From Streptantibioticus silvisoli (GTDB taxonomy: Bacteria > Actinomycetota > Actinomycetes > Streptomycetales > Streptomycetaceae), in assembly GCF_027947535.2 (NCBI RefSeq), contig NZ_JAAGKO020000068.1:1-33811 (forward strand): a stretch of DNA of 33,811 bases, in the 5' to 3' direction. The notes under the pieces were generated by a model that saw only the letters and a list, made by a program, of their open reading frames with translations, was not told the DNA's origin and did no database searches. This document shows, one piece after another, positions 509-19,933 of the stretch (position 1 is its first letter; each line of letters opens with the position of its first letter). The position numbers and the translations under genes were made by a program.

Positions 509-3262
509 TCAGACGTCGACGTGTCCGTGGACCCGCATGGTGAGGATGGCCATGTCGTCGGAGGGCGGGTCCGGGGCGAAGCGCTCCACGGCCCGCTGGA
601 CCCGGGCGGCGACCGCGCCGGCGGTGAGGCCGGTGCTCTGGGCCAGCACCTCCGCGAGGCCGTCGTCGCCGAGCATGCGGCTGCCCTCCCGGCGTTCGGT
701 GACACCGTCGGTGACGCACAGCAGGACATCGCCGGATTCCAGGCGCACCGTCTGCTCGACCAGGCGGATGTCGTCCATGACGCCCAGCAGCGGCTGCGGG
801 TCCGCGGCGGAGACGACCTTGCCGTCCTTGCGCAGCCGCAGGGGCAGCGGGTGCCCGGCGCAGACCACCTTCAGCTCGGCGCTGCCGTCCGGCTGCGGCC
901 ACAACTCGCCGTAGAGCAGGGTGAGGAAGCGGCTGCGGGCGCCCTCGTCGAGGATGGCGGTGTTGAGGCGTTCCAGCACGGCGGGGCCGCCGAGGCCCTC
1001 ACGGGCCAGCAGGCGCAGCGCGTGCCGGGCCAGGCCGGTGACGGCGGCGGCTTCCGGTCCGGTGCCGCAGACGTCGCCGATGGCGAAGCCCCAGCAGCCC
1101 TCGCGGATCGGGAACAGGTCGTAGAAGTCGCCGCCGACCTCGTTGCCCTCGCCGGCCGCCTGGTAGATGACCTCGACCTCGACGCCGGGGATGTGCGGCA
1201 ACTCCGGCGGCAGCAGGCTGCGTTGCAGGGACTGGCTGATCGCGGTGCGCTCGGAGTACAGCCGGGCGTTGTCCAGGGCGAGCGCGGCCCGGCGCGAGAG
1301 GTCCTCGGCCAGTTCCAGGATCTCCTGGCGGAAGCGTTCGTCGGACGGCTTGCCGAGCGTCAGCATGCCGATGACGCGGTTGCGGGCGACCAGCGGCAGC
1401 ACGACGGTCTCGCCGCCGACCGCGGAGGCGGTGGCGTGCGCGCCGGTGCCGGTGGCGGGCCGGCCGGCCTCGGCCAGGCCCAGGCTGCGCAGCGAGGCGC
1501 GCAGCGCGGTGGAGTGGGCCGCTTCGGACGGCGCGTTCCACATCCGGGCGCCCGGGGTGGGGTCGGGGGAGGGCGGCGCGATGCGGGACAGCAGCGCCTT
1601 GAGGCCGTCGATGCGGTCCTCGTCCTCGTGCAGGACGAAGGCGAGTTCCGGTTCGGACTGCTCGGCGATGGTGTAGACGGCGCACCAGGTGGCGAGCGTC
1701 GGCACCGTCATCTGGGCCATCAGGGCCAGTGTCTGGTCGCGTTCCAGGGTGCCGGCCAGCAGGTCGGAGGCCTCGACGAGGAAGGACAGCGAGCCGCGGC
1801 GCAGCCGTTCGAGCTCGGTGAGCCGGGCGCTTTCGACGGCCAGCGCGATCCGGTCGGCGGCGAACTGAAGGCGCAGCGCCTCCTCGTTGGTGTACCGGCC
1901 CGGGGCCTCGGCGGCGACGCCCAGCGAGCCGGTGAGGCGGCCTTCGACCTTCAGCGGGACGGTGACGACCGAGCGCATGCCGGTGCCGGACAGCAGCGGG
2001 ACGGCGCCGGGCGCGACGGTGAGGTCCTCGTGGACGGCGGGCATCCGGGCGCTGCCGTAGCGGCCGGAGCCGGCTTCGACGGGGACCCGGGCGAAGCGCT
2101 GGCGGGCGGCGGGCAGTCCGGTGGAGGCGCGCACCTCCAGCTCGGTCTCGTCGTCGGTGGCGAGCAGCAGGTAGGCGGCGTCGCCGTCGAGCATGTCGCG
2201 GGCGCGTTCGACGGTGCGTTGCAGCAGGCCGTCGAGGTCGTCGGGGGCGGGGGAGCCGATGAAGACCTCGAAGGGGTCGGCCGCGTTGCCGCCCCGGTCG
2301 CCGGGGGAGTCCTGCACCGGGATGCGCACCGGGCTCTGCAGGATGGCGCGTTCGTTCTCGCGCACCAGCAGGCAGACGGTGGAGGGGGCGCCGTCGCTGT
2401 CGCGCACCCGCAGGTGGGAGCCGTAGACCGGCTGGACCTTGCCGTCGGAGTCGCGCAGGCCGTAGGAGCCCTCCCAGCGCGACAGCCGCAGCGCCTCGGC
2501 GAGGCCGAAGCCGGTGCCGGGGGTCTGCGGCCAGGCGCTGAGGTCGCCCAGTGGTTTGCCGGTGACCTGCTCGGCGGTATGGCCGAAGAGTGCCTGCGCG
2601 TCGTCGTTCCAGCCGCTGACGGTGCCGTCGTGGTCGACCTGGACGACGGCGACCCGGACCCGGGGGTCGGCCAGCGGCAGGGAGGCGGGGGGCAGCGGGG
2701 GGCCGGCGGAGCGGGTGCCGGCCGGGCGGTCGGGCAGTTCGAGCTGGAACCAGACGCGTTTGTGGGTGGGGGTGTACTCCACGCCCCAGCGGCCGGCCAG
2801 CGCGGAGCACAGGATGAGGCCGCGGCCGCCCTCCTTGTCGGGGGAGGCGGTCAGGTGGGGGGAGGTGTGCAGCGGCACCTCGCGTTCCGGGTACTGGTCG
2901 GCGACCTCGATGCGGACCGAGCCCGGCTGGCGCAGGCACACCACGTCGGCGGCGGTGCCGGCGTGGACCACGGCGTTGGTGACGAGTTCGCTGGTCAGGA
3001 CGACGGCGTCGTCGGTGACGTCGGCGAACCCCCACCCCTGGAGCGTGTCGCGCACGAAGGCGCGGGCGGTGGCGACGGAACGTCCGACCGGCTCGAAGGT
3101 GGCGGCTGCCCGCGCGGTGATCAATTGGCTCCTCGTGTGTCGCAGGTCACCCGGCTCGGCGTCGGGCCGTCCGGTGCCGTTCCGCCCGGGTGGGCGGTGG
3201 CCGGCCGCGAACCCGGATGGGGGCGCGGGCGAGTCCTTCCGTTCGGCGCTCTGCTCGCGCAT
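509..3262 (-). CDS. osaC: OsaC-like multidomain anti-sigma kinase / PP2C phosphatase
   Basis: This is a 917-aa cytoplasmic regulator with no membrane segments. Rough domain order: an RsbW-like HATPase at 45-177 (N-box SELVTNAVVHAG at 91-102, GGRGL at 145-149); PAS at 196-305; two GAF domains at about 331-476 and 496-666; and a SpoIIE/PP2C phosphatase at 690-917 with EVGGDFYDLF at 708-717 and a C-terminal SDDMAIL metal-binding motif. The family pairs an anti-sigma kinase with a phosphatase that resets anti-anti-sigma factors. In S. coelicolor, OsaC modulates SigB after osmotic shock. I chose ATG 3262 because GGAGGGG lies about 11 nt upstream; an upstream ATG at 3304 has no good ribosome site. 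It is divergent from osaA with 248 bp between. Assignment rests on domain order plus the osaA/osaB neighbours. Confidence 0.9.
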   Translation of the reverse strand: MREQSAERKDSPAPPSGFAAGHRPPGRNGTGRPDAEPGDLRHTRSQLITARAAATFEPVGRSVATARAFVRDTLQGWGFADVTDDAVVLTSELVTNAVVHAGTAADVVCLRQPGSVRIEVADQYPEREVPLHTSPHLTASPDKEGGRGLILCSALAGRWGVEYTPTHKRVWFQLELPDRPAGTRSAGPPLPPASLPLADPRVRVAVVQVDHDGTVSGWNDDAQALFGHTAEQVTGKPLGDLSAWPQTPGTGFGLAEALRLSRWEGSYGLRDSDGKVQPVYGSHLRVRDSDGAPSTVCLLVRENERAILQSPVRIPVQDSPGDRGGNAADPFEVFIGSPAPDDLDGLLQRTVERARDMLDGDAAYLLLATDDETELEVRASTGLPAARQRFARVPVEAGSGRYGSARMPAVHEDLTVAPGAVPLLSGTGMRSVVTVPLKVEGRLTGSLGVAAEAPGRYTNEEALRLQFAADRIALAVESARLTELERLRRGSLSFLVEASDLLAGTLERDQTLALMAQMTVPTLATWCAVYTIAEQSEPELAFVLHEDEDRIDGLKALLSRIAPPSPDPTPGARMWNAPSEAAHSTALRASLRSLGLAEAGRPATGTGAHATASAVGGETVVLPLVARNRVIGMLTLGKPSDERFRQEILELAEDLSRRAALALDNARLYSERTAISQSLQRSLLPPELPHIPGVEVEVIYQAAGEGNEVGGDFYDLFPIREGCWGFAIGDVCGTGPEAAAVTGLARHALRLLAREGLGGPAVLERLNTAILDEGARSRFLTLLYGELWPQPDGSAELKVVCAGHPLPLRLRKDGKVVSAADPQPLLGVMDDIRLVEQTVRLESGDVLLCVTDGVTERREGSRMLGDDGLAEVLAQSTGLTAGAVAARVQRAVERFAPDPPSDDMAILTMRVHGHVDV

Positions 3263-3510: not shown

Positions 3511-8958
<5,448 letters not shown>

Positions 8959-9965: not shown

Positions 9966-10368
9966 GCGGCCCTCCGGGGGTCGGCGGGAAGGTCTTGGGC
10001 GCGGGGCTTCTCGGTGCACAGGGGTTTTCCGGGGTGGAGGTCTTCGGGGTGCGGTGAGGTCTTCTGGGGGCGGGTGTCTTCGGGGGCGGTCGGGCGCCTT
10101 CGCGGCGTACCGGGGTCGTCGGGTGGAGGTCTTCACCGGTGACCGGGCCTTCGGGGGCGGATGTCTTCGCGGTGGCGTGAGGTCTTCGGCGGCGGGCGTC
10201 TTCGCGGGGTCCCGAGGTCTTCGGCGGCCGGAGCGGACGGGCGGGCTCCGGCGCACGACGGGCATCGCGTCTGACGCCCGCTCACCGTGCGGGCGGGGCG
10301 CGGCGACACGAACGGGCGAAGGTCTGTCAGGCGTGTCGGCGCCGGGGCAACGGCGGTAATGTCGCACC
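9966..10368 (+). other. osaB-ftsK intergenic region with degenerate GTCTTC repeats
   Basis: This 403-bp stretch holds no supported gene. It contains an irregular array of a GTCTTCGgGG-like core. Exact GTCTTC occurs at 10040, 10060, 10076, 10130, 10163, 10182, 10198 and 10217, with GCCTTC variants at 10096 and 10147. Spacing is mostly 16-20 nt. The final 12 bases are the ftsK -10 region. Confidence 0.7.
10357..10362 (+). promoter_or_regulatory. -10 element of ftsK (probably leaderless)
   Basis: TAATGT lies 6 nt before the ftsK ATG at 10369. That spacing would place the transcription start at or next to the A of the ATG. No ribosome-binding site is visible before the ATG, which is consistent with a leaderless mRNA. 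The -35 is not clear. Confidence 0.6.
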
Positions 10369-13227
10369 ATGGCCTCACGTACGTCCGGCAAGGGCTCCAG
10401 CAGCGCTACGGCGCCCGCACAGCGCGCCGGGCGTGGCAAGGCCGCCGCGGTGCCGGCCAAGAAAACGGCGGCCCGCCGCAGCGCGGCACCGCCCGTCAAG
10501 GGCGGCAAGGCCACCGGGAGGAAGCCGCCGGTCAAGAAGGCCGTCAGGCCCGCGCCGAAACCCGCCCCGAGTCCCACCGGCGGCGTCTACCGGCTGGTGC
10601 GCGCGGTGTGGCTGGGGTTCGCGCACAGCGTCGGCGCCGTCTTCCGCGGTGTCGGGCGCGGCGCCCGCGGCCTGGACCCGGCCCACCGCAAGGACGGCCT
10701 GGCGCTGCTGCTGCTCGGCGTGGCCCTGGTCACCGCGGCCGGCACCTGGTCCAACCTCAGCGGCCCGGTCGGCGACCTGGTGGAGATGCTGGTCACCGGC
10801 GCGTTCGGCCGGCTCGACCTGCTGGTGCCGATACTGCTGGCGATCGTCGCGGTCCGCCTGATGCGGCACCCGGAGCAGCAGGACGCCAACGGACGCATCG
10901 TCATCGGGCTGTCCGCGCTGCTGATCGGCGTGCTCGGCATGGTGCACATCGCGTGCGGCGCCCCCGGCCGGGGCCAGGGCGCGCAGGCCCTGCGCGACGC
11001 CGGCGGCCTGATCGGCTGGGCGGCGTCCAAGCCGCTGCTGTTCACCGTCGGCTCGACCCTCGCGGTGCCCCTGCTGGCCCTGGTCACCCTCTTCGGTTTC
11101 CTGGTGGTCACCGCCACCCCGGTCAACGCGATCCCGCAGCGCCTGAAGCAGATCGGCACCCGCCTGGGGCTCTACCTGCCCCCGGAGACCGACGAGGACG
11201 CCGACCCGTTCGACGACGAGGACGGCCTCGCCGCCGACGACACCCCGGTACCGGCCCGGCGCGGCGGATCGAGCTCCGCGGCCCCCGCCGAGTCGCCCGA
11301 CGCCGTCGAGGCCGCCGAGATCGGCCGGCGCCGCCGTCCCCGGCGCGGGCAGGAGGCCGGTACGCCGGAGCCCGGGGCGGTGGCGGACTTCACCAAGCGC
11401 GACCCCAACGCGGTCGACGTCGCCGCGGCCGCGGCCGCCGCGCTGGACGGCGCGGTGCTGCACGGCGTACAGCCCTCGCCGCTCGTGGCCGACCTCACCA
11501 GTTCCCTCCGCACCGTGCCCCCCGGCGGCCGTACCGGCGCCCGCCCGGCCGGCCAGGGCGACGCCGACGGCAGCGGCGGCACCGGCGCCCCGGCGAGGAC
11601 CCCGGCCACCGCCGGCTCCGGCTCCGGCTCCGCCGGCCCCGGCACGGGCAAGGCGGCGAAGGCGGGGGAGGGGACCGTTGCCGACCTGACGAAGCGGCCC
11701 GTGGTGCCCGAGGGCGACCCGTTGCCGCCGCGGGCCGAGCAGTTGATGCTCTCCGGCGACATCACGTACGCGCTGCCGCCGCTGGACCTGCTGGAGCGCG
11801 GCGGCCCCGGGCGGACCCGCAGCGCGGCCAACGACGCGGTGGTGGCGGCGCTCAGCGGGGTGTTCGGCGAGTTCAAGGTCGACGCCACCGTCACCGGGTT
11901 CAGCCGCGGCCCGACCGTCACCCGCTACGAGGTGGAACTCGGTCCGGCGGTGAAGGTCGAGCGGATCACCGCGCTGGCCAAGAACATCGCCTACTCGGTG
12001 GCCAGCCCGGATGTGCGGATCATAAGCCCGATCCCGGGCAAGTCGGCCGTGGGCATCGAGATCCCCAACTCCGACCGCGAGATGGTCAACCTCGGTGACG
12101 TCCTCCGTTCGGCGCAGGCCATCGGCGAGGAACACCCGATGACCGTCGCCCTCGGCAAGGACGTCGAAGGCGGCTACGTCACCGCCAACCTCGCCAGGAT
12201 GCCGCACGTCCTGGTGGCCGGCGCGACCGGTTCCGGCAAGTCCTCGTGCATCAACTGCCTGATCACCTCGATCATGGTCCGCGCCACCCCGGAGGAGGTC
12301 CGGATGGTGCTGGTCGACCCCAAGCGGGTCGAGCTGACCGCCTACGAGGGCATCCCGCACCTGATCACCCCGATCATCACCAACCCCAAGAAGGCCGCCG
12401 AGGCCCTCCAGTGGGTGGTGCGCGAGATGGACCTGCGCTACGACGACCTGGCCGCCTACGGCTACCGCCACATCGACGACTTCAACGCCGCCATCCGCTC
12501 CGGCAAGGCCAAGCCGCCGGAGGGCAGCGAACGCGAGCTGGTCCCCTACCCGTACCTGCTGGTGATCGTCGACGAGCTGGCCGACCTGATGATGGTCGCC
12601 CCGCGCGACGTCGAGGACTCCATCGTCCGCATCACCCAGCTGGCCCGCGCGGCCGGCATCCACCTGGTCCTCGCCACCCAGCGGCCCAGCGTCGACGTGG
12701 TCACCGGCCTGATCAAGGCCAACGTGCCCTCCCGGCTGGCGTTCGCCACCTCCTCGCTCGCCGACAGCCGCGTCATCCTCGACCAGCCCGGCGCCGAGAA
12801 GCTCATCGGCAAGGGCGACGCGCTCTTCCTGCCGATGGGCGCGAACAAGCCGGTCCGGCTCCAGGGCGCGTTCGTCACCGAGGACGAGGTCCAGGGCGTC
12901 GTCGACCACTGCAAGGCCCAGTTCACCCCGTCCTACCGCCAGGACGTCATGGTCGGCGCCGGCCCGAAGAAGGAGATCGACGAGGAGATCGGCGACGACC
13001 TCGACCTGCTGATGCAGGCCGTCGAGCTGGTCGTCTCCACCCAGTTCGGCTCGACCTCGATGCTCCAGCGCAAACTGCGCGTGGGATTCGCCAAAGCGGG
13101 CAGGCTCATGGACCTGATGGAGTCCCGCAACATCGTGGGGCCCAGCGAGGGGTCGAAGGCGCGTGACGTGCTGATCAAGCCGGACGACCTGGACGGAGTA
13201 CTCGCCGAGATCAGCGGCGGCGGCTGA
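10369..13227 (+). CDS. ftsK: FtsK/SpoIIIE family DNA translocase
   Basis: This 952-aa membrane-anchored motor pumps chromosomal DNA through closing septa; in streptomycetes it protects chromosomes during sporulation septation. Residues 1-75 are Lys/Ala/Pro-rich and basic. About four membrane helices follow (near 107-127, 148-166, 178-198, 225-250). An acidic to Ala/Pro-rich linker (about 265-460) carries three copies of a V-A-D-[FL]-T motif (338, 373, 437). The motor domain has Walker A GATGSGKS at 618-625 and Walker [14 protein letters not shown] near 729. The C-terminal gamma winged helix is at about 875-952 ([20 protein letters not shown]). The ATG is preceded by a -10 box rather than a ribosome site. 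The stop codon lies inside the first unit of a 38-bp repeat array. Confidence 0.97.
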
Positions 13228-13451
13228 CCGGAGTACTGGTGGTCGGCCGGAGCACGGACGGCTGACCGGAGCACCAGTGGCCGGCTGGAACACGGACGGC
13301 TGACCGGTGTACCGGTGGTTGGCCGGAGCACGGACGGCTGACCGGAGTACTGGTGGTTGGCCGGAGCACGGACGGCTGGCCGGAGTACTGGTGGTCGGCC
13401 GGAGCACGGACGGCTGGCCGGAGCACCGGTGGTTGGCCGGAGCACCGACGG
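13224..13451 (+). repeat. Six tandem 38-bp repeats downstream of ftsK
   Basis: Units begin at 13224, 13262, 13300, 13338, 13376 and 13414, each exactly 38 bp. Each starts CTG(A/G)CCGG and ends GAGCACGGACGG or a close variant. The first unit includes the ftsK stop codon. Because 38 is not a multiple of 3, the array is not periodic coding sequence. There are no spacers, so it is not CRISPR. Confidence 0.95.
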
Positions 13452-13669
13452 CGGACGCCCACCGGTGCGGTGTTGCGGGCAACCGTTCGTGCCGTTCATA
13501 CGTCAAAATGGAGAAGGGAGCCCGTGAATGGATGCCTGCCCCTCCGCACGGACGCGATCCGGCCGGACCCCGATGGCGGACACTCGATGGCCGCCCGGTT
13601 GCCCGCTGTTCGCAGAGCGCCCCTAGACTGAATTTCCAGCAGGTGGCTACACGTTTGAAAGGCGTCCCC
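13228..13669 (+). other. ftsK to RodZ-like gene intergenic region (442 bp)
   Basis: The first half is the 38-bp repeat array to 13451. The remainder, 13452-13598, is unremarkable. It is followed by a good promoter at 13599-13629. Reading frames that start in this region on either strand run through the repeat array and lack ribosome sites. Confidence 0.7.
13599..13629 (+). promoter_or_regulatory. Promoter of the RodZ-like gene
   Basis: TTGCCC (13599-13604) and TAGACT (13624-13629) are separated by 19 nt. This matches the Streptomyces vegetative (HrdB) pattern. It would give a leader of about 33 nt before the GTG start at 13670. Confidence 0.7.
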
Positions 13670-14660: not shown

Positions 14661-16232
14661 ATGCCCGAACCCCGTACCGTCGCTCTGGTCACTCTCGGCT
14701 GCGCGCGCAATGAGGTGGACTCCGAAGAGCTCGCCGGCCGTCTGGCGGCGGACGGCTGGCGCCTCGTGGAGGACGCCTCGGACGCCGACGTCGCCGTCGT
14801 CAACACCTGCGGCTTCGTCGACGCCGCCAAGAAGGACTCCGTCGACGCCCTCCTGGAGGCCAACGACCTCAAGGGCCAGGCCCGCACCCAGGCCGTCGTC
14901 GCGGTCGGCTGCATGGCCGAGCGGTACGGCAAGGAACTCGCCGAGGCGCTGCCCGAGGCCGACGCGGTCCTGGGCTTCGACGACTACGCCGACATCTCCG
15001 ACCGGCTGCGCACCATCCTGTCCGGCGGTGTGCACGCCCCGCACACCCCGCGCGACCGCAGGCAGCTGCTGCCGATCAGCCCCGCCGAACGGCAGAACGC
15101 CACCGTCGCGCTGCCCGGCCACGCCCAGCCCGCCCCGCAGAACGTCCCGGCGGACCTGCCCGAGGGCATCGCCCCCGCCTCCGGCCCCCGCACCCCGCTG
15201 CGCCGCCGGCTCGACGGCGGACCGGTGGCCTCCGTCAAGCTCGCCTCCGGCTGCGACCGCCGCTGCGCCTTCTGCGCCATCCCCTCCTTCCGCGGCTCGT
15301 TCGTCTCCCGGCGCCCCTCCGACGTGCTCGGCGAGACCCGCTGGCTGGCCGAGCAGGGCGTCAAGGAGGTCATGCTGGTCAGCGAGAACAACACCTCCTA
15401 CGGCAAGGACCTCGGCGACATCCGCCTGCTGGAGACCCTGCTGCCGGAACTCGCCGCCGTCGACGGCATCGAGCGCATCCGGGTCAGCTACCTCCAGCCC
15501 GCCGAGATGCGCCCCGGCCTGATCGACGTGCTCACCGGCACCCCCAAGGTCGCCCCCTACTTCGACCTGTCCTTCCAGCACTCCGCGCCCGGCGTGCTGC
15601 GCGCCATGCGCCGCTTCGGCGACACGGACCGCTTCCTGGAGCTGCTGGAGACCATCCGCGGCAAGGCCCCCCAGGCGGGGGTGCGCTCCAACTTCATCGT
15701 CGGCTTCCCCGGTGAGACCGAGGCCGACCTCGCCGAACTGGAACGCTTCCTCAACGGCGCCCGGCTCGACGCCGTCGGCGTGTTCGGCTACTCCGACGAG
15801 GAGGGCACCGAGGCCGCCGGCTACGACGGCAAGCTCCCGCAGGACGTGGTCTCCGACCGGCTGGCCCACATCTCCCGGCTCGCCGAGGAACTCACCGCGC
15901 AGCGCGCGGAGGACCGGCTCGGCGAGACGGTGGAGGTACTGGTGGAGTCCGTCTCCGCGGGCTTCGCGGACGGGTCAGCGGACGGTTCCGCGATCGACGG
16001 GGCCGGTTCCGGCGTCGGTGGAAGTGGTGGGCACGGGGACGGGGACGGCGAGGAGTACGCGGCCGTCGGCCGGGCCGCCCACCAGGCGCCGGAGACCGAC
16101 GGCCAGATCCTGCTGACGGAACGCCACGGCCTCGCCCCGGGAAGCATGGTCACCGCGAAGGTGGTGGACACCGACGGCGTCGACCTCGTCGCCGAGCCGC
16201 TGGCCGGCGGTACCCGGGGGGTCTGCGGATGA
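14661..16232 (+). CDS. rimO: Ribosomal protein S12 methylthiotransferase RimO
   Basis: This 523-aa radical-SAM enzyme adds a methylthio group to an Asp of ribosomal protein S12. The N-terminal UPF0004 domain has the three cluster cysteines C14 (T-L-G-C-A-R-N), C50 (N-T-C-G-F) and C84 (V-G-C-M-A-E-R). The radical-SAM cluster is C198-x3-C202-x2-C205 (G-C-D-R-R-C-A-F-C). The C-terminal TRAM domain (about 420-515) is interrupted by a Gly/Asp/Ser-rich insertion of roughly 35 residues at about 432-465, which accounts for the length above the usual 440-490. The stop overlaps the pgsA ATG (ATGA, 16229-16232), so the two are probably translationally coupled. RimO rather than MiaB is supported by the [11 protein letters not shown] region and the neighbours. 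Confidence 0.95.
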
Positions 16233-17656
16233 CCGGAGTACCCGCGAGCGCCGCCGGCGGCCACCGCCCCGCCGCGGCCGCCGGGGACCGCGGCGACCAC
16301 CTCCAGGACGCGGTGGTCCGCCCGGTCAAGCTGTGGAACGTCGCCAACGCCCTCACCATGCTGCGCCTGCTGCTGGTGCCCGGCTTCGTCCTGCTGCTCC
16401 TGCACGGCGACGGCCACGACCCGGCCTGGCGCTCCTTCGCCTGGGCCGCGTTCGCCGTCGCGATGATCACCGACCTGTTCGACGGCGAGATCGCCCGCCG
16501 GTACGACATGGTGACCGACTTCGGCAAGATCGCCGACCCGATCGCCGACAAGGCGATCATGGGCGCCGCCCTCATCGGCCTGTCCGCCCTGGGCGACCTG
16601 CCCTGGTGGGTCACCGCGGTCATCCTCTTCCGCGAGGTCGGCATCACCCTCATGCGCTTCTGGGTGATCCGGCACGCCGTGATCCCCGCCAGCCGCGGCG
16701 GCAAACTGAAGACGCTCACCCAGGGCGTCGCCGTCGGCATGTATGTCCTCATCCTCACCGGCCCCCTGGCCAGCCTCCGCGGCTGGTTCATGGCCGCCGC
16801 GGTGGTCCTCACCGTCCTCACCGGCCTCGACTACGTCCGCCAGGCGGTGGTCCTGCGCAGGGCGAGCCTGGCACGGGCGAGAGGCTTTTCCGCCGGGGGA
16901 GGGGGGCTCGCCGACGGGGCGGGTGTCTCCGACGGTGCGAGTGTCTCCGACGGTGTGGGTGTCTCCGACGGGGCGGGTGTCTCCGACGGTGGTGGCGTCT
17001 CCGACGGTGCGGCCGTTGGGGGTGCGGATGCGGGCGGTGCTTCGGGTGCTGCTGGCGGTGCGGGCGCTGGTGCCTTGGGTGTTGCTGGGGGTGCGGTGGC
17101 CGGCGGTGGTGCGGACGCTGGCGGTGCCTCCGGCGTTGCTGGCGGTGCGGATGCTGACGGCGGTGAGGTGGCTGGGGGTGAGGTGGTCGATGGTGCCTCG
17201 GGGGGTGCCGGTGGCGTGGTCGGCGGTGTCTCGGGTGTTGCCGGTGGCGTGGTCGACGGTGCCTCGGGTGTTGGCGGTGGCGTGGTCGACGGTGGCTCGA
17301 GTCTTGGCGGTGCGGTGGTTGAGGGTGAGGTGGTCGATGGCGCCTCGGGGGGTGCCGGTGGCGTGGTCGGCGGTGCCTTGGGTGCTGGCGGGGGCGTGGT
17401 CGGCGGTGCCTCCGGTGCCGATGGTGCGGCGGTCGACGGAGCCGAGGGCGCTGGGGGTGCCGGGGCTGCTACTGACTCCGGTTCCGTGGTGGCCGACGGT
17501 GCCGCCACTCCCGCGGACGTCGCTGACGCCTCCGGTGAGGTGCCGCCCTCCGGGGCCACGGCTTCCGGTGCGGTGGACACCGCGGAGGACGCCGAGCCGG
17601 ACGGCATCGCGAACGGCATCGCGGGTACGGCCGCGGTCCGCAGGCCGCAGACGTGA
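16229..17656 (+). CDS. pgsA: CDP-diacylglycerol-glycerol-3-phosphate phosphatidyltransferase with long low-complexity tail
   Basis: This 475-aa membrane enzyme makes phosphatidylglycerol phosphate from CDP-diacylglycerol and glycerol-3-phosphate. Residues about 35-212 are the complete catalytic core with several membrane helices. The full CDP-alcohol phosphotransferase motif D-x2-DG-x2-AR-x8-G-x3-D-x3-D is present at about 85-111 (begins D-L-F-D-G-E-I-A-R). Residues about 215-475 are a Gly/Val/Ala/Asp/Ser-rich tail. It has five hexapeptides of the G-V-S-D-G-x type (16922-17011) and then about six 11-residue units of the G-G-V-V-x-G-x-S-G type. Codon third positions there are noticeably richer in T than in the core. 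It starts at the ATGA overlap with rimO and overlaps pncC by GTGA. Family members are usually about 200-270 aa, so the tail is the anomaly. Confidence 0.93.
16922..17011 (+). repeat. Five 18-bp tandem repeats inside pgsA
   Basis: The unit reads approximately GGTGTCTCCGACGGTGCG (peptide G-V-S-D-G-A) and is in frame. It starts at 16922, 16940, 16958, 16976 and 16994, with a partial copy just before. Substitutions fall mainly in the first and last codons. Confidence 0.9.
17180..17420 (+). repeat. Imperfect 33-bp in-frame repeats and a 49-bp duplication inside pgsA
   Basis: An 11-codon unit (G-G-V-V-x-G-x-S-G-x-x) recurs about six times. A block of about 49 bases beginning at 17180 is repeated almost identically at 17327, an offset of 147 bp (49 codons). 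The coding strand here is strongly G/T-rich. Confidence 0.8.
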
Positions 17657-18228
17657 CGACGCCGGAGGACGGCACGGGCCGCCCCGACGCCTCCGTTGCG
17701 GCCACCGCGCTGCGTCTGCTCACGCGACGCGGTGAGACCCTCGCGGTCGCCGAGTCGCTCACCGGTGGGCTGGTGGCGGCCGAACTGACGTCGGTGCCGG
17801 GCGCGTCCAGCGCCTTCGCCGGTTCCGTGACCGCGTACGCCACGCGGCTCAAGCACGAACTCCTCGGAGTCGACGCCGGGTTGCTGGCCGACCGCGGCGC
17901 GGTGGACCCCGACGTCGCCCGGTCCATGGCCCGCGGCGTCCGCGACCGCCTCAGCGCCACTTGGGGCCTCGCGACGACCGGGGTGGCCGGTCCCGCCCCC
18001 CAGGACGGCAAGCCCGTCGGAACGGTCTACGTCGCGGTGGCCGGCCCCTCCCACGCGGCCGTCGTCCCCCTCACCCTGTCCGGCGACCGCTCCGCCATCC
18101 GCGTCGCCGCGGTCCGGGGTGCGCTGGAACTGCTGGTGGACGCGCTGTCGGCGCCGGACGGACCACCTTCCGGTGAAGCGCGGGAAAACGGGAAAGCTAA
18201 GGATACGGAACAGCCCGGAAGTTTCTGA
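17653..18228 (+). CDS. pncC: Nicotinamide-nucleotide amidohydrolase (PncC / CinA C-terminal family)
   Basis: This is a 191-aa cytoplasmic enzyme of the CinA C-terminal family. It deamidates nicotinamide mononucleotide in NAD recycling and lacks the N-terminal CinA competence domain. The diagnostic motif A-E-S-L-T-G-G-L (about 33-40) contains the catalytic Ser. G-S-V-T-A-Y, T-T-G-V-A-G-P and K-P-V-G-T-V-Y follow as expected. The start is GTG 17653, overlapping the pgsA stop as GTGA. The pgsA-cinA-clgR order is conserved in actinobacteria. The C-terminal about 20 residues are polar and variable. Confidence 0.93.
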   Translation: MTTPEDGTGRPDASVAATALRLLTRRGETLAVAESLTGGLVAAELTSVPGASSAFAGSVTAYATRLKHELLGVDAGLLADRGAVDPDVARSMARGVRDRLSATWGLATTGVAGPAPQDGKPVGTVYVAVAGPSHAAVVPLTLSGDRSAIRVAAVRGALELLVDALSAPDGPPSGEARENGKAKDTEQPGSF

Positions 18229-19782: not shown

Positions 19783-19831
19783 GCCGTCTGCCGTCTGCCG
19801 TCTGCCGTCTGCCGTCTGCCGTCTGCCGTCT
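19783..19831 (+). repeat. Heptanucleotide microsatellite (GCCGTCT)x7
   Basis: Seven perfect head-to-tail copies of GCCGTCT are followed by degenerate GCCGCCGGTCCT. The array is intergenic. Confidence 0.97.
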
Positions 19832-19933
19832 GCCGCCGGTCCTGCCGCCGGTCCCGCGGCCGGGGCCGGGGTCGAGGCAGGCCGAGGCCGAGATCGCGAC
19901 CGGGGCGGAACGGAGGCACCGGGCGGGTTGGGG

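Follow-up and report, generated by a model that had tools for sequence, protein, structure and literature searches.

The window, the whole 33,811-nucleotide stretch of DNA analysed here, comes from a draft genome of Streptantibioticus silvisoli (8.7 Mb, 130 contigs). It carries the gene order rimO, pgsA, pncC, joined first by an ATGA and then by a GTGA overlap according to the open reading frame (ORF) list and the sequence. The pgsA frame continues past its catalytic core into a long repetitive tail, organized as follows.

14661–16232, plus strand: rimO, the upstream gene (ORF list; TIGR01125 above cutoff)
16229–16232, plus strand: ATGA overlap of the rimO stop and the pgsA start (sequence)
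16229–17656, plus strand: whole pgsA frame, ATG start, 475 open codons
16229–16867, plus strand: catalytic core of pgsA (CDP-alcohol phosphatidyltransferase), codons 1–213 (profiles and solved-chain match)
16868–17653, plus strand: Gly/Ala/Val/Asp tail of PgsA, 262 codons from codon 214 (translation and composition)
16911–17012, plus strand: 18-bp tandem array encoding G-V-S-D-G-x hexapeptides (TRF period 18, 5.7 copies, 85% matches; repeat search)
17159–17171, plus strand: dispersed 13-mer GGYGGTGMGGTGG, copy 1 (own-genome pattern search)
17176–17228, plus strand: 53-bp near-exact duplication, copy 1 (an 18-bp and a 34-bp exact run separated by one mismatch)
17183–17443, plus strand: imperfect 33-bp repeats encoding VVxGxSGxxGG 11-mers (TRF period-33 rows and unit list)
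17306–17318, plus strand: dispersed 13-mer, copy 2 (own-genome pattern search)
17323–17375, plus strand: 53-bp near-exact duplication, copy 2, at an offset of 147 bp (exact runs)
17653–17656, plus strand: GTGA overlap of the pgsA stop and the pncC start (sequence)
17653–18228, plus strand: pncC, CinA C-terminal type nicotinamide-nucleotide amidohydrolase family (ORF; TIGR00199 at 117.3 bits, cutoff 68.9)

The catalytic motif of CDP-alcohol phosphatidyltransferases is D-x2-D-G-x2-A-R-x8-G-x3-D-x3-D, and the corresponding PgsA residues (D82, D85, G86, A89, R90, G99, D103 and D107) are invariant across 25 sequences. PgsA scores above the curated cutoff of TIGR00560 (121.3 bits, cutoff 109.1), with PF01066 spanning residues 36–196 (163.5 bits, cutoff 22). 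Its closest solved chain by sequence is 7drj_A (E 2.7e-17). An AlphaFold2 model built from a 25-sequence input, of modest confidence (mean pLDDT 51, pTM 0.33), forms the core from six helices, and its best Foldseek match is 7drj_B (E 6.7e-6, TM 0.65 by target length). The PgsA core is intact and has the fold of the solved PgsA 7drj. Its nearest named relatives belong to Streptantibioticus and Actinacidiphila, with 91% identical cores. The upstream RimO has a Gly/Asp/Ser-rich low-complexity stretch of its own near the C-terminus (window positions 15950–16060, within its ORF), and its profile match ends at residue 433 of 523.

The long repetitive tail behind the PgsA core is confirmed. A preliminary description of this DNA had proposed a tail of about 260 residues, composed of G-V-S-D-G-x hexapeptides and 11-mers and ending in a 4-bp overlap with pncC; the tail measures 262 residues from codon 214 (position 16868), the peptides correspond to the 18-bp and 33-bp TRF units, and the overlap is the GTGA at 17653–17656. 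The 49-bp duplication it had placed at 17180/17327 is identical at 48 of 49 positions, and its exact runs widen it to 53 bp. The 33-bp units at 17183–17327 comprise 4.4 copies with 86% matches, and TRF reports higher-order periods of 87, 114 and 147 bp. A search for inverted repeats of at least 18 bp (10-bp seed) returned none in 16868–17656. By composition, the 262 residues include 88 Gly, 60 Ala, 37 Val, 23 Asp and 21 Ser.

The codon use of the tail is alien to the genome. Third-position T, which had been judged richer in the tail than in the core, is 0.298 vs 0.005, and GC3, which the preliminary description had proposed to compare between the two parts, is 0.687 vs 0.981. GGT accounts for 46 of 88 Gly codons in the tail vs 0 of 21 in the core. 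The strong G/T bias already ascribed to the coding strand is borne out by a GC skew of up to +0.44 and an AT skew down to −0.71 in 300-bp windows. Comparison of repeat copies, in which the pairs are non-independent, yielded 12, 70 and 60 mismatches at codon positions 1, 2 and 3 for the 33-bp units and 10, 14 and 26 for the 18-bp units. Position 1 is nearly always G and is conserved between copies, whereas in the 33-bp part position 2, which sets the choice among Gly, Ala, Val, Asp and Glu, is no better kept than position 3. The class of residue is thereby kept between copies and its identity is not.

At the protein level, AlphaFold2 predicts no secondary structure for residues 236–475 (pLDDT < 50). 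The tail is acidic (31 Asp/Glu vs 4 Lys/Arg), and no membrane-like hydropathy was found in it, with a 19-residue maximum of 1.32 vs 2.04 in the core. Since the C-terminus of this phosphatidyltransferase family is cytosolic, the tail would hang in the cytosol. No particular function is indicated, and the tail is probably a passive, disordered C-terminal extension.

Other repeats occur in the window. TRF reports a 276-bp (92-codon) unit repeated ten times in tandem at 4025–6798 (79% matches), overlapping 19- and 35-bp repeats around GAGGTCTTCG at 10032–10228, and 7.6 perfect copies of the heptamer GCCGTCT at 19783–19835. Tandem repeats of 19 and 38 bp, not multiples of three, lie at 13221–13456, over the called start of an ORF that probably begins further downstream.

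We then considered whether the tail is genuinely read in the PgsA frame. The pgsA strand contains only about 5% A over 16868–17500, and five of the six frames of the array are stop-free; because the A-poor strand leaves so many frames open, the open frame of the array proves nothing alone. GC by codon position in the PgsA frame of the tail is 0.904/0.695/0.633, so that the usual coding pattern is absent. An antisense Pro-rich frame was rejected as the true gene, its values (0.695/0.904/0.633) being unlike the coding sequence of this genome. Likewise rejected was an early stop hidden by a single indel in a G-run: the two alternative forward frames stop at 17157 and 17735 without giving a short tail like those of orthologs. 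The PgsA frame is chosen because of the core, the kept overlap and repeat periods that are multiples of three. On self-comparison, all well-matching offsets of the tail are multiples of three (838 covered positions vs 0 and 0 in the other two phases).

This periodicity extends to related arrays in the same genome, which are described below. In 12 coding arrays (the window, eight sense and three antisense), 49 of 49 TRF periods are multiples of three; ten arrays presumed to be intergenic have 30 such periods out of 40 (Fisher p 1.7e-4, with non-independent TRF rows; 12/0 vs 4/6 by locus, p 0.003). Set aside from this table were L117, which spans a stop (periods 15, 67, 27, 30 and 15), L143, L144 and L147, which are not clearly sense or Pro-rich, and one 1-base period in L119; the periods of L147 are all multiples of three. 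In the presumed intergenic arrays the share of such periods exceeds one third and several arrays are G-phased, L151 being too short for the phase comparison. Their unit may have been built of triplets from the start, or some of them may be former or unrecognised coding sequence. The periods of the coding arrays and the kept GTGA overlap point to selection on frame, an argument that is weakened, not removed, because the presumed intergenic arrays are also mostly in multiples of three and often G-phased. The preliminary description had suggested an expansion tolerated because the frame stays open; the frame is indeed open, but the account is incomplete, as openness is near-automatic here and the periods and GTGA point to frame selection.

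To place the tail in its family context, we measured PgsA tails after the same core position at 109 other loci (99 distinct tails, owing to two overlapping searches), leaving out the window itself together with L001, which duplicates it, and L111, a paralogue. Lengths range from 7 to 127 residues (median 17, quartiles 10 and 46), and 62 of the 109 tails have at most 20 residues. The longest unfused tails have 127, 97 and 85 residues, and low-complexity tails reach 127 residues. One further frame of 217 residues, outside this range, is a PgsA–PncC fusion: in L032 (Actinacidiphila epipremni, match 4001–4528) both proteins form one uninterrupted frame, joined naturally by a low-complexity linker of about 60 residues. 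Relatives with 80–91% identical cores carry tails of 7–20 residues. In three close relatives (L003, L031 and L004) the junction was read at the DNA level. Among 28 tails of at least 40 residues, excluding the fusion L032, third-position T has a median of 0.08 and a maximum of 0.21. Of 109 loci, the window included, 80 have the start/stop overlap of pgsA and pncC, and the rest have other spacings or stops (L001, L111 and L091, where no pncC was found, were left out of this survey).

The window's tail has no alignable orthologue. The end of PgsA is a hypervariable junction, free in length and with the overlap mostly kept, of which the window's tail is the extreme. The orthologue comparison proposed in the preliminary description thus revealed hypervariable lengths, and its claim that such tails do not occur in phosphatidyltransferases was too strong, shorter low-complexity tails being common in the family. 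Its alternative of passive repeat expansion gains support from the variation in tail length between species, the unkept residues of the copies and the unstructured model.

Similar G/T-rich repeats marked by third-position T recur in unrelated proteins and apparent intergenic gaps of the same genome. As a protein query against its own genome, the PgsA tail found only itself. BLAST of the pgsA array at the DNA level returned at least 40 scored matches, self included, and at least 800 first-look candidates. We read 27 of 39 non-self scored matches: nine are sense-coding, four antisense to coding sequence, ten presumed intergenic, two unclear (L143 and L144), and a further two (L133 and L137) did not reappear on re-check. 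Gene calls around the arrays came from a codon model with six ORFs of the window as its training set, and the sense-coding arrays were assigned to proteins by Pfam and reading. The coding and antisense arrays are as follows.

L113: sense array, linker of a double ABC ATPase
L114: sense array, stretch before DUF4129 in a TgpA-type transglutaminase
L116: sense array in a TetR regulator (1221–2114, minus strand), inserted between conserved parts of the C-terminal domain
L117, 1497–1745: sense array, C-terminal tail of an EamA permease
L132: sense array, C-terminal tail of an MFS transporter
L136: sense array, loop of another MFS transporter
L138: sense array, C-terminal tail of RimM (1409–2101, minus strand)
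L141: sense array, C-terminal tail of a TPR protein
L148: sense array, linker in a CHAD protein
L139, L145 and L149: antisense to genes, the array DNA reading as Pro/Ala/Thr linkers
L147: antisense to a gene, the array DNA reading as a His/Thr/Ala repeat

All ten sense-coding arrays, PgsA included, use the frame of G-first codons (Gly/Ala/Val). Third-position T is 0.16–0.37 in the nine other sense arrays vs 0.01–0.05 in the rest of the same genes. The TetR regulator L116 displays a Gly/Ala/Val/Asp insertion of about 100 residues without counterpart in four homologues (47–59% identity), in which the sequences matching its flanks are adjacent or nearly so. The RimM tail (L138) has 67 residues with GEVSDG repeats, vs 0–68 residues of other composition at 29 other loci; the wording GEVSDG closely resembles GVSDGA in the PgsA tail. 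The 40-residue EamA tail (L117) has no like among 13 homologues, whose ends comprise 1–62 residues. Neither the RimM nor the EamA tail is the longest of its kind (67 vs up to 68 and 40 vs up to 62 residues). In L117 a stop cuts the array and the Gly/Ala/Val reading resumes behind it in another frame, which may reflect either a tail frameshifted by slippage of one base in a G-run or an error in sequencing.

The extent to which this is peculiar to one genome was assessed by several counts. At BLAST E ≤ 1e-8, the array finds seven of seven scored places in its own genome vs 0–3 of seven in 80 other family genomes, seven of which have 1–3 places. Of ten such places read in relatives, three encode Thr/Pro linkers on the opposite strand and one a Gly/Ala/Asp run; the rest resemble ordinary coding sequence, and three of these are near-identical and come from a single genome. 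The 13-mer GGYGGTGMGGTGG occurs 114 times in its own genome vs at most 58 times in 60 other genomes; relative to the reversed 13-mer, the ratio is 114/22 here and 58/10 in the relative G024, so the own ratio is not out of line. Both the array query and the 13-mer were taken from this genome, and the counts accordingly favour it. First-look candidates number at least 800 vs 133–705 among the other genomes listed in the first comparison, and 693 vs 90–424 among 49 listed of 296 others in the wider one; this 297-genome comparison scored two places per genome and gives no array count. The longest shared words among 19 own arrays average 13.06 bp vs 10.95–11.39 bp in 12 order-2 Markov simulations, a null that ignores triplet phase, and their excess over this simple null is only suggestive of repeat copying between loci. 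Unrelated plasmids also match the array DNA weakly, at 60–80% (14 records), and because low-complexity DNA finds such matches, BLAST E-values are weak evidence of common origin. We take the excess of this genome to be real in degree and the tendency to be family-wide.

Together, these observations lead us to favour, with a probability of roughly 0.65, an expansion of repeats at the DNA level that took place at many sites in this genome and was sifted by selection on reading frame and position, with the PgsA tail translated and probably passive. The starting unit would be a short G/T-rich motif of G-first codons, 15–18 bp long and 33 bp when combined, with the core GGYGGTGMGGTGG. At the end of pgsA, such a motif may have grown by slippage or unequal exchange, to which the tandem structure and the near-exact duplication point. 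The near-absence of A, observed directly, makes stops rare, and the frame would simply lengthen. Out-of-frame changes would displace the stop from the pncC start and be lost, as the periods in multiples of three and the kept GTGA suggest. The overlap itself was presumably kept for translational coupling of pgsA and pncC; a spacing of −4 is described as important for coupling in PMC12548453. The array would survive where the protein tolerates it, in this case behind the last PgsA helix. The same has happened at other tolerant sites, as the nine other sense arrays show, so that unrelated proteins have tails, linkers or loops rich in Gly, Ala, Val and Asp(Glu).

A rather unlikely reading is an active, dispersing coding minisatellite: gene conversion or template switching would spread the G/T-rich, triplet-phased repeat with core GGYGGTGMGGTGG between loci, adding the same acidic Gly/Ala/Val/Asp peptide in frame to unrelated proteins; many proteins of one organism would then share a home-made disordered tag in termini, linkers and a regulator loop. 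Alternatively, there may be no genome-specific process, only the extreme of low-complexity termini and linkers in high-GC actinobacteria, each grown alone from codon bias and alike by compositional convergence. PgsA and RimM tails throughout the family are indeed variable and of low complexity, somewhat elevated third-position T occurs in the tails of relatives, motif-to-control ratios are alike in several relatives, and unrelated plasmids give weak matches. We nevertheless consider convergence unlikely, as this genome leads in array matches and 13-mer count, has the most first-look candidates among the genomes listed, and shares words of 13.06 vs 10.95–11.39 bp between its arrays, albeit against a weak null that does not keep triplet phase.

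The acidity of the tail (31 Asp/Glu vs 4 Lys/Arg), its length, its being in frame to the end, and the conserved codon position 1 of the 33-bp copies (12 of 142 mismatches), with the Gly/Ala/Val/Asp/Glu class kept, would suit a selected functional domain of PgsA, such as a flexible cytosolic tether, a spacer or a former of membrane condensates. Such a role is improbable given that 80–91% identical cores elsewhere carry tails of 7–20 residues, that the residue-setting position 2 is as variable as position 3 (70 and 60 mismatches), that unrelated proteins carry the same kind of array, and that neither a folded element nor a membrane-like 19-residue stretch is predicted. Retention of the array for its DNA or RNA, as a G-quadruplex, transcription or mRNA-stability element on the G-rich sense strand, is highly improbable. 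The G-quadruplex check proposed earlier did reveal raised G-richness (G4Hunter 0.83 in 16868–17500, with 132 of 608 25-mers at or above 1.2 vs 3.3% window-wide), our reading of the 13-mer fits two-quartet spacing, and arrays also lie outside called genes; but the tail has no canonical G3+ motif, the reversed 13-mer with equal G-tract spacing occurs 22 vs 114 times, and arrays lie on both strands relative to genes. On these grounds, a G-quadruplex was rejected as decisive. We give equally little credence to an artefact or untranslated tail, arising from repeat mis-assembly or from a G-run indel near 16895–16906 that masks an earlier stop. The draft assembly has 130 contigs, the array begins directly after G-runs, and the genomes compared include no second genome of the genus; yet the imperfect copies can be told apart, a frame shift yields no ortholog-like short tail (frames ending at 17157 and 17735), and like arrays lie on other contigs within conserved genes such as rimM.

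Bacterial low-complexity regions (LCRs) are usually studied protein by protein, and here they occur in unrelated, partly essential proteins of one genome. Such arrays, which lie in called genes as well as outside them and carry codon use foreign to the genome, allow one to ask what share of protein disorder in bacteria is a side effect of repeat growth in the DNA, with the frame, the junction with the following gene and the topology of the protein as filters, and which protein sites can take up such sequence; a loop of about 100 residues in a TetR regulator and a 262-residue tail on a membrane enzyme exemplify the tolerance. Searches of open-licence PMC papers listed no report of PgsA tails or of such a dispersed array in Streptomycetaceae.

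Among known systems, PE_PGRS proteins have a long Gly-rich repeat tail behind a conserved domain, encoded by GC-rich DNA, and in these respects resemble PgsA. Here, however, the tail sits on a membrane enzyme and only one member of the gene family carries it, and no PE domain was found in PgsA, PF01066 being the only Pfam match at E ≤ 0.001. Elastin-like sequences consist of VPGxG pentads; the PgsA tail contains no VPG and only 5 Pro in 262 residues. Four further systems show parallels. Slippage-grown LCRs are known in bacterial proteins and, as portrayed in PMC6821194, are likewise Gly/Ala-rich and disordered, with a proposed slippage origin; GGC is the prevalent Gly codon there, whereas GGT prevails here (46 of 88) and the arrays recur in many unrelated genes. 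Palindromic elements of Rickettsia, of about 150 bp with a conserved peptide, lie in frame inside unrelated genes and alter the encoded products (PMC10969869); the ten sense-coding arrays of this genome likewise lie in frame in unrelated proteins. Those elements are palindromic and keep their peptide sequence, whereas the units here are short and tandem, without an inverted repeat of at least 18 bp in 16868–17656, and keep the peptide in composition only. Mycobacterial interspersed repetitive units (MIRUs) are repeats at overlapping start/stop junctions with −4 spacing, and the pgsA array shares this position; a MIRU, as described in PMC12548453, brings its own ORF, coupled to the next gene, whereas here the array lengthens PgsA, the existing GTGA is kept and the coupled frame would be that of PgsA. 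PARCEL elements, too, are tandem repeats within coding sequence that occur in many genes of one genome; their 25-residue amphipathic palindromic motif and suggested horizontal spread, as outlined in PMC2996958, have no counterpart seen here. The PgsA tail thus shares traits with LCRs, Rickettsia elements and MIRUs, and by definition belongs only with the slippage-grown LCRs. Copying of its repeats between loci would make them the tandem-repeat equivalent of the Rickettsia elements; otherwise they are a well-marked case of ordinary repeat growth.
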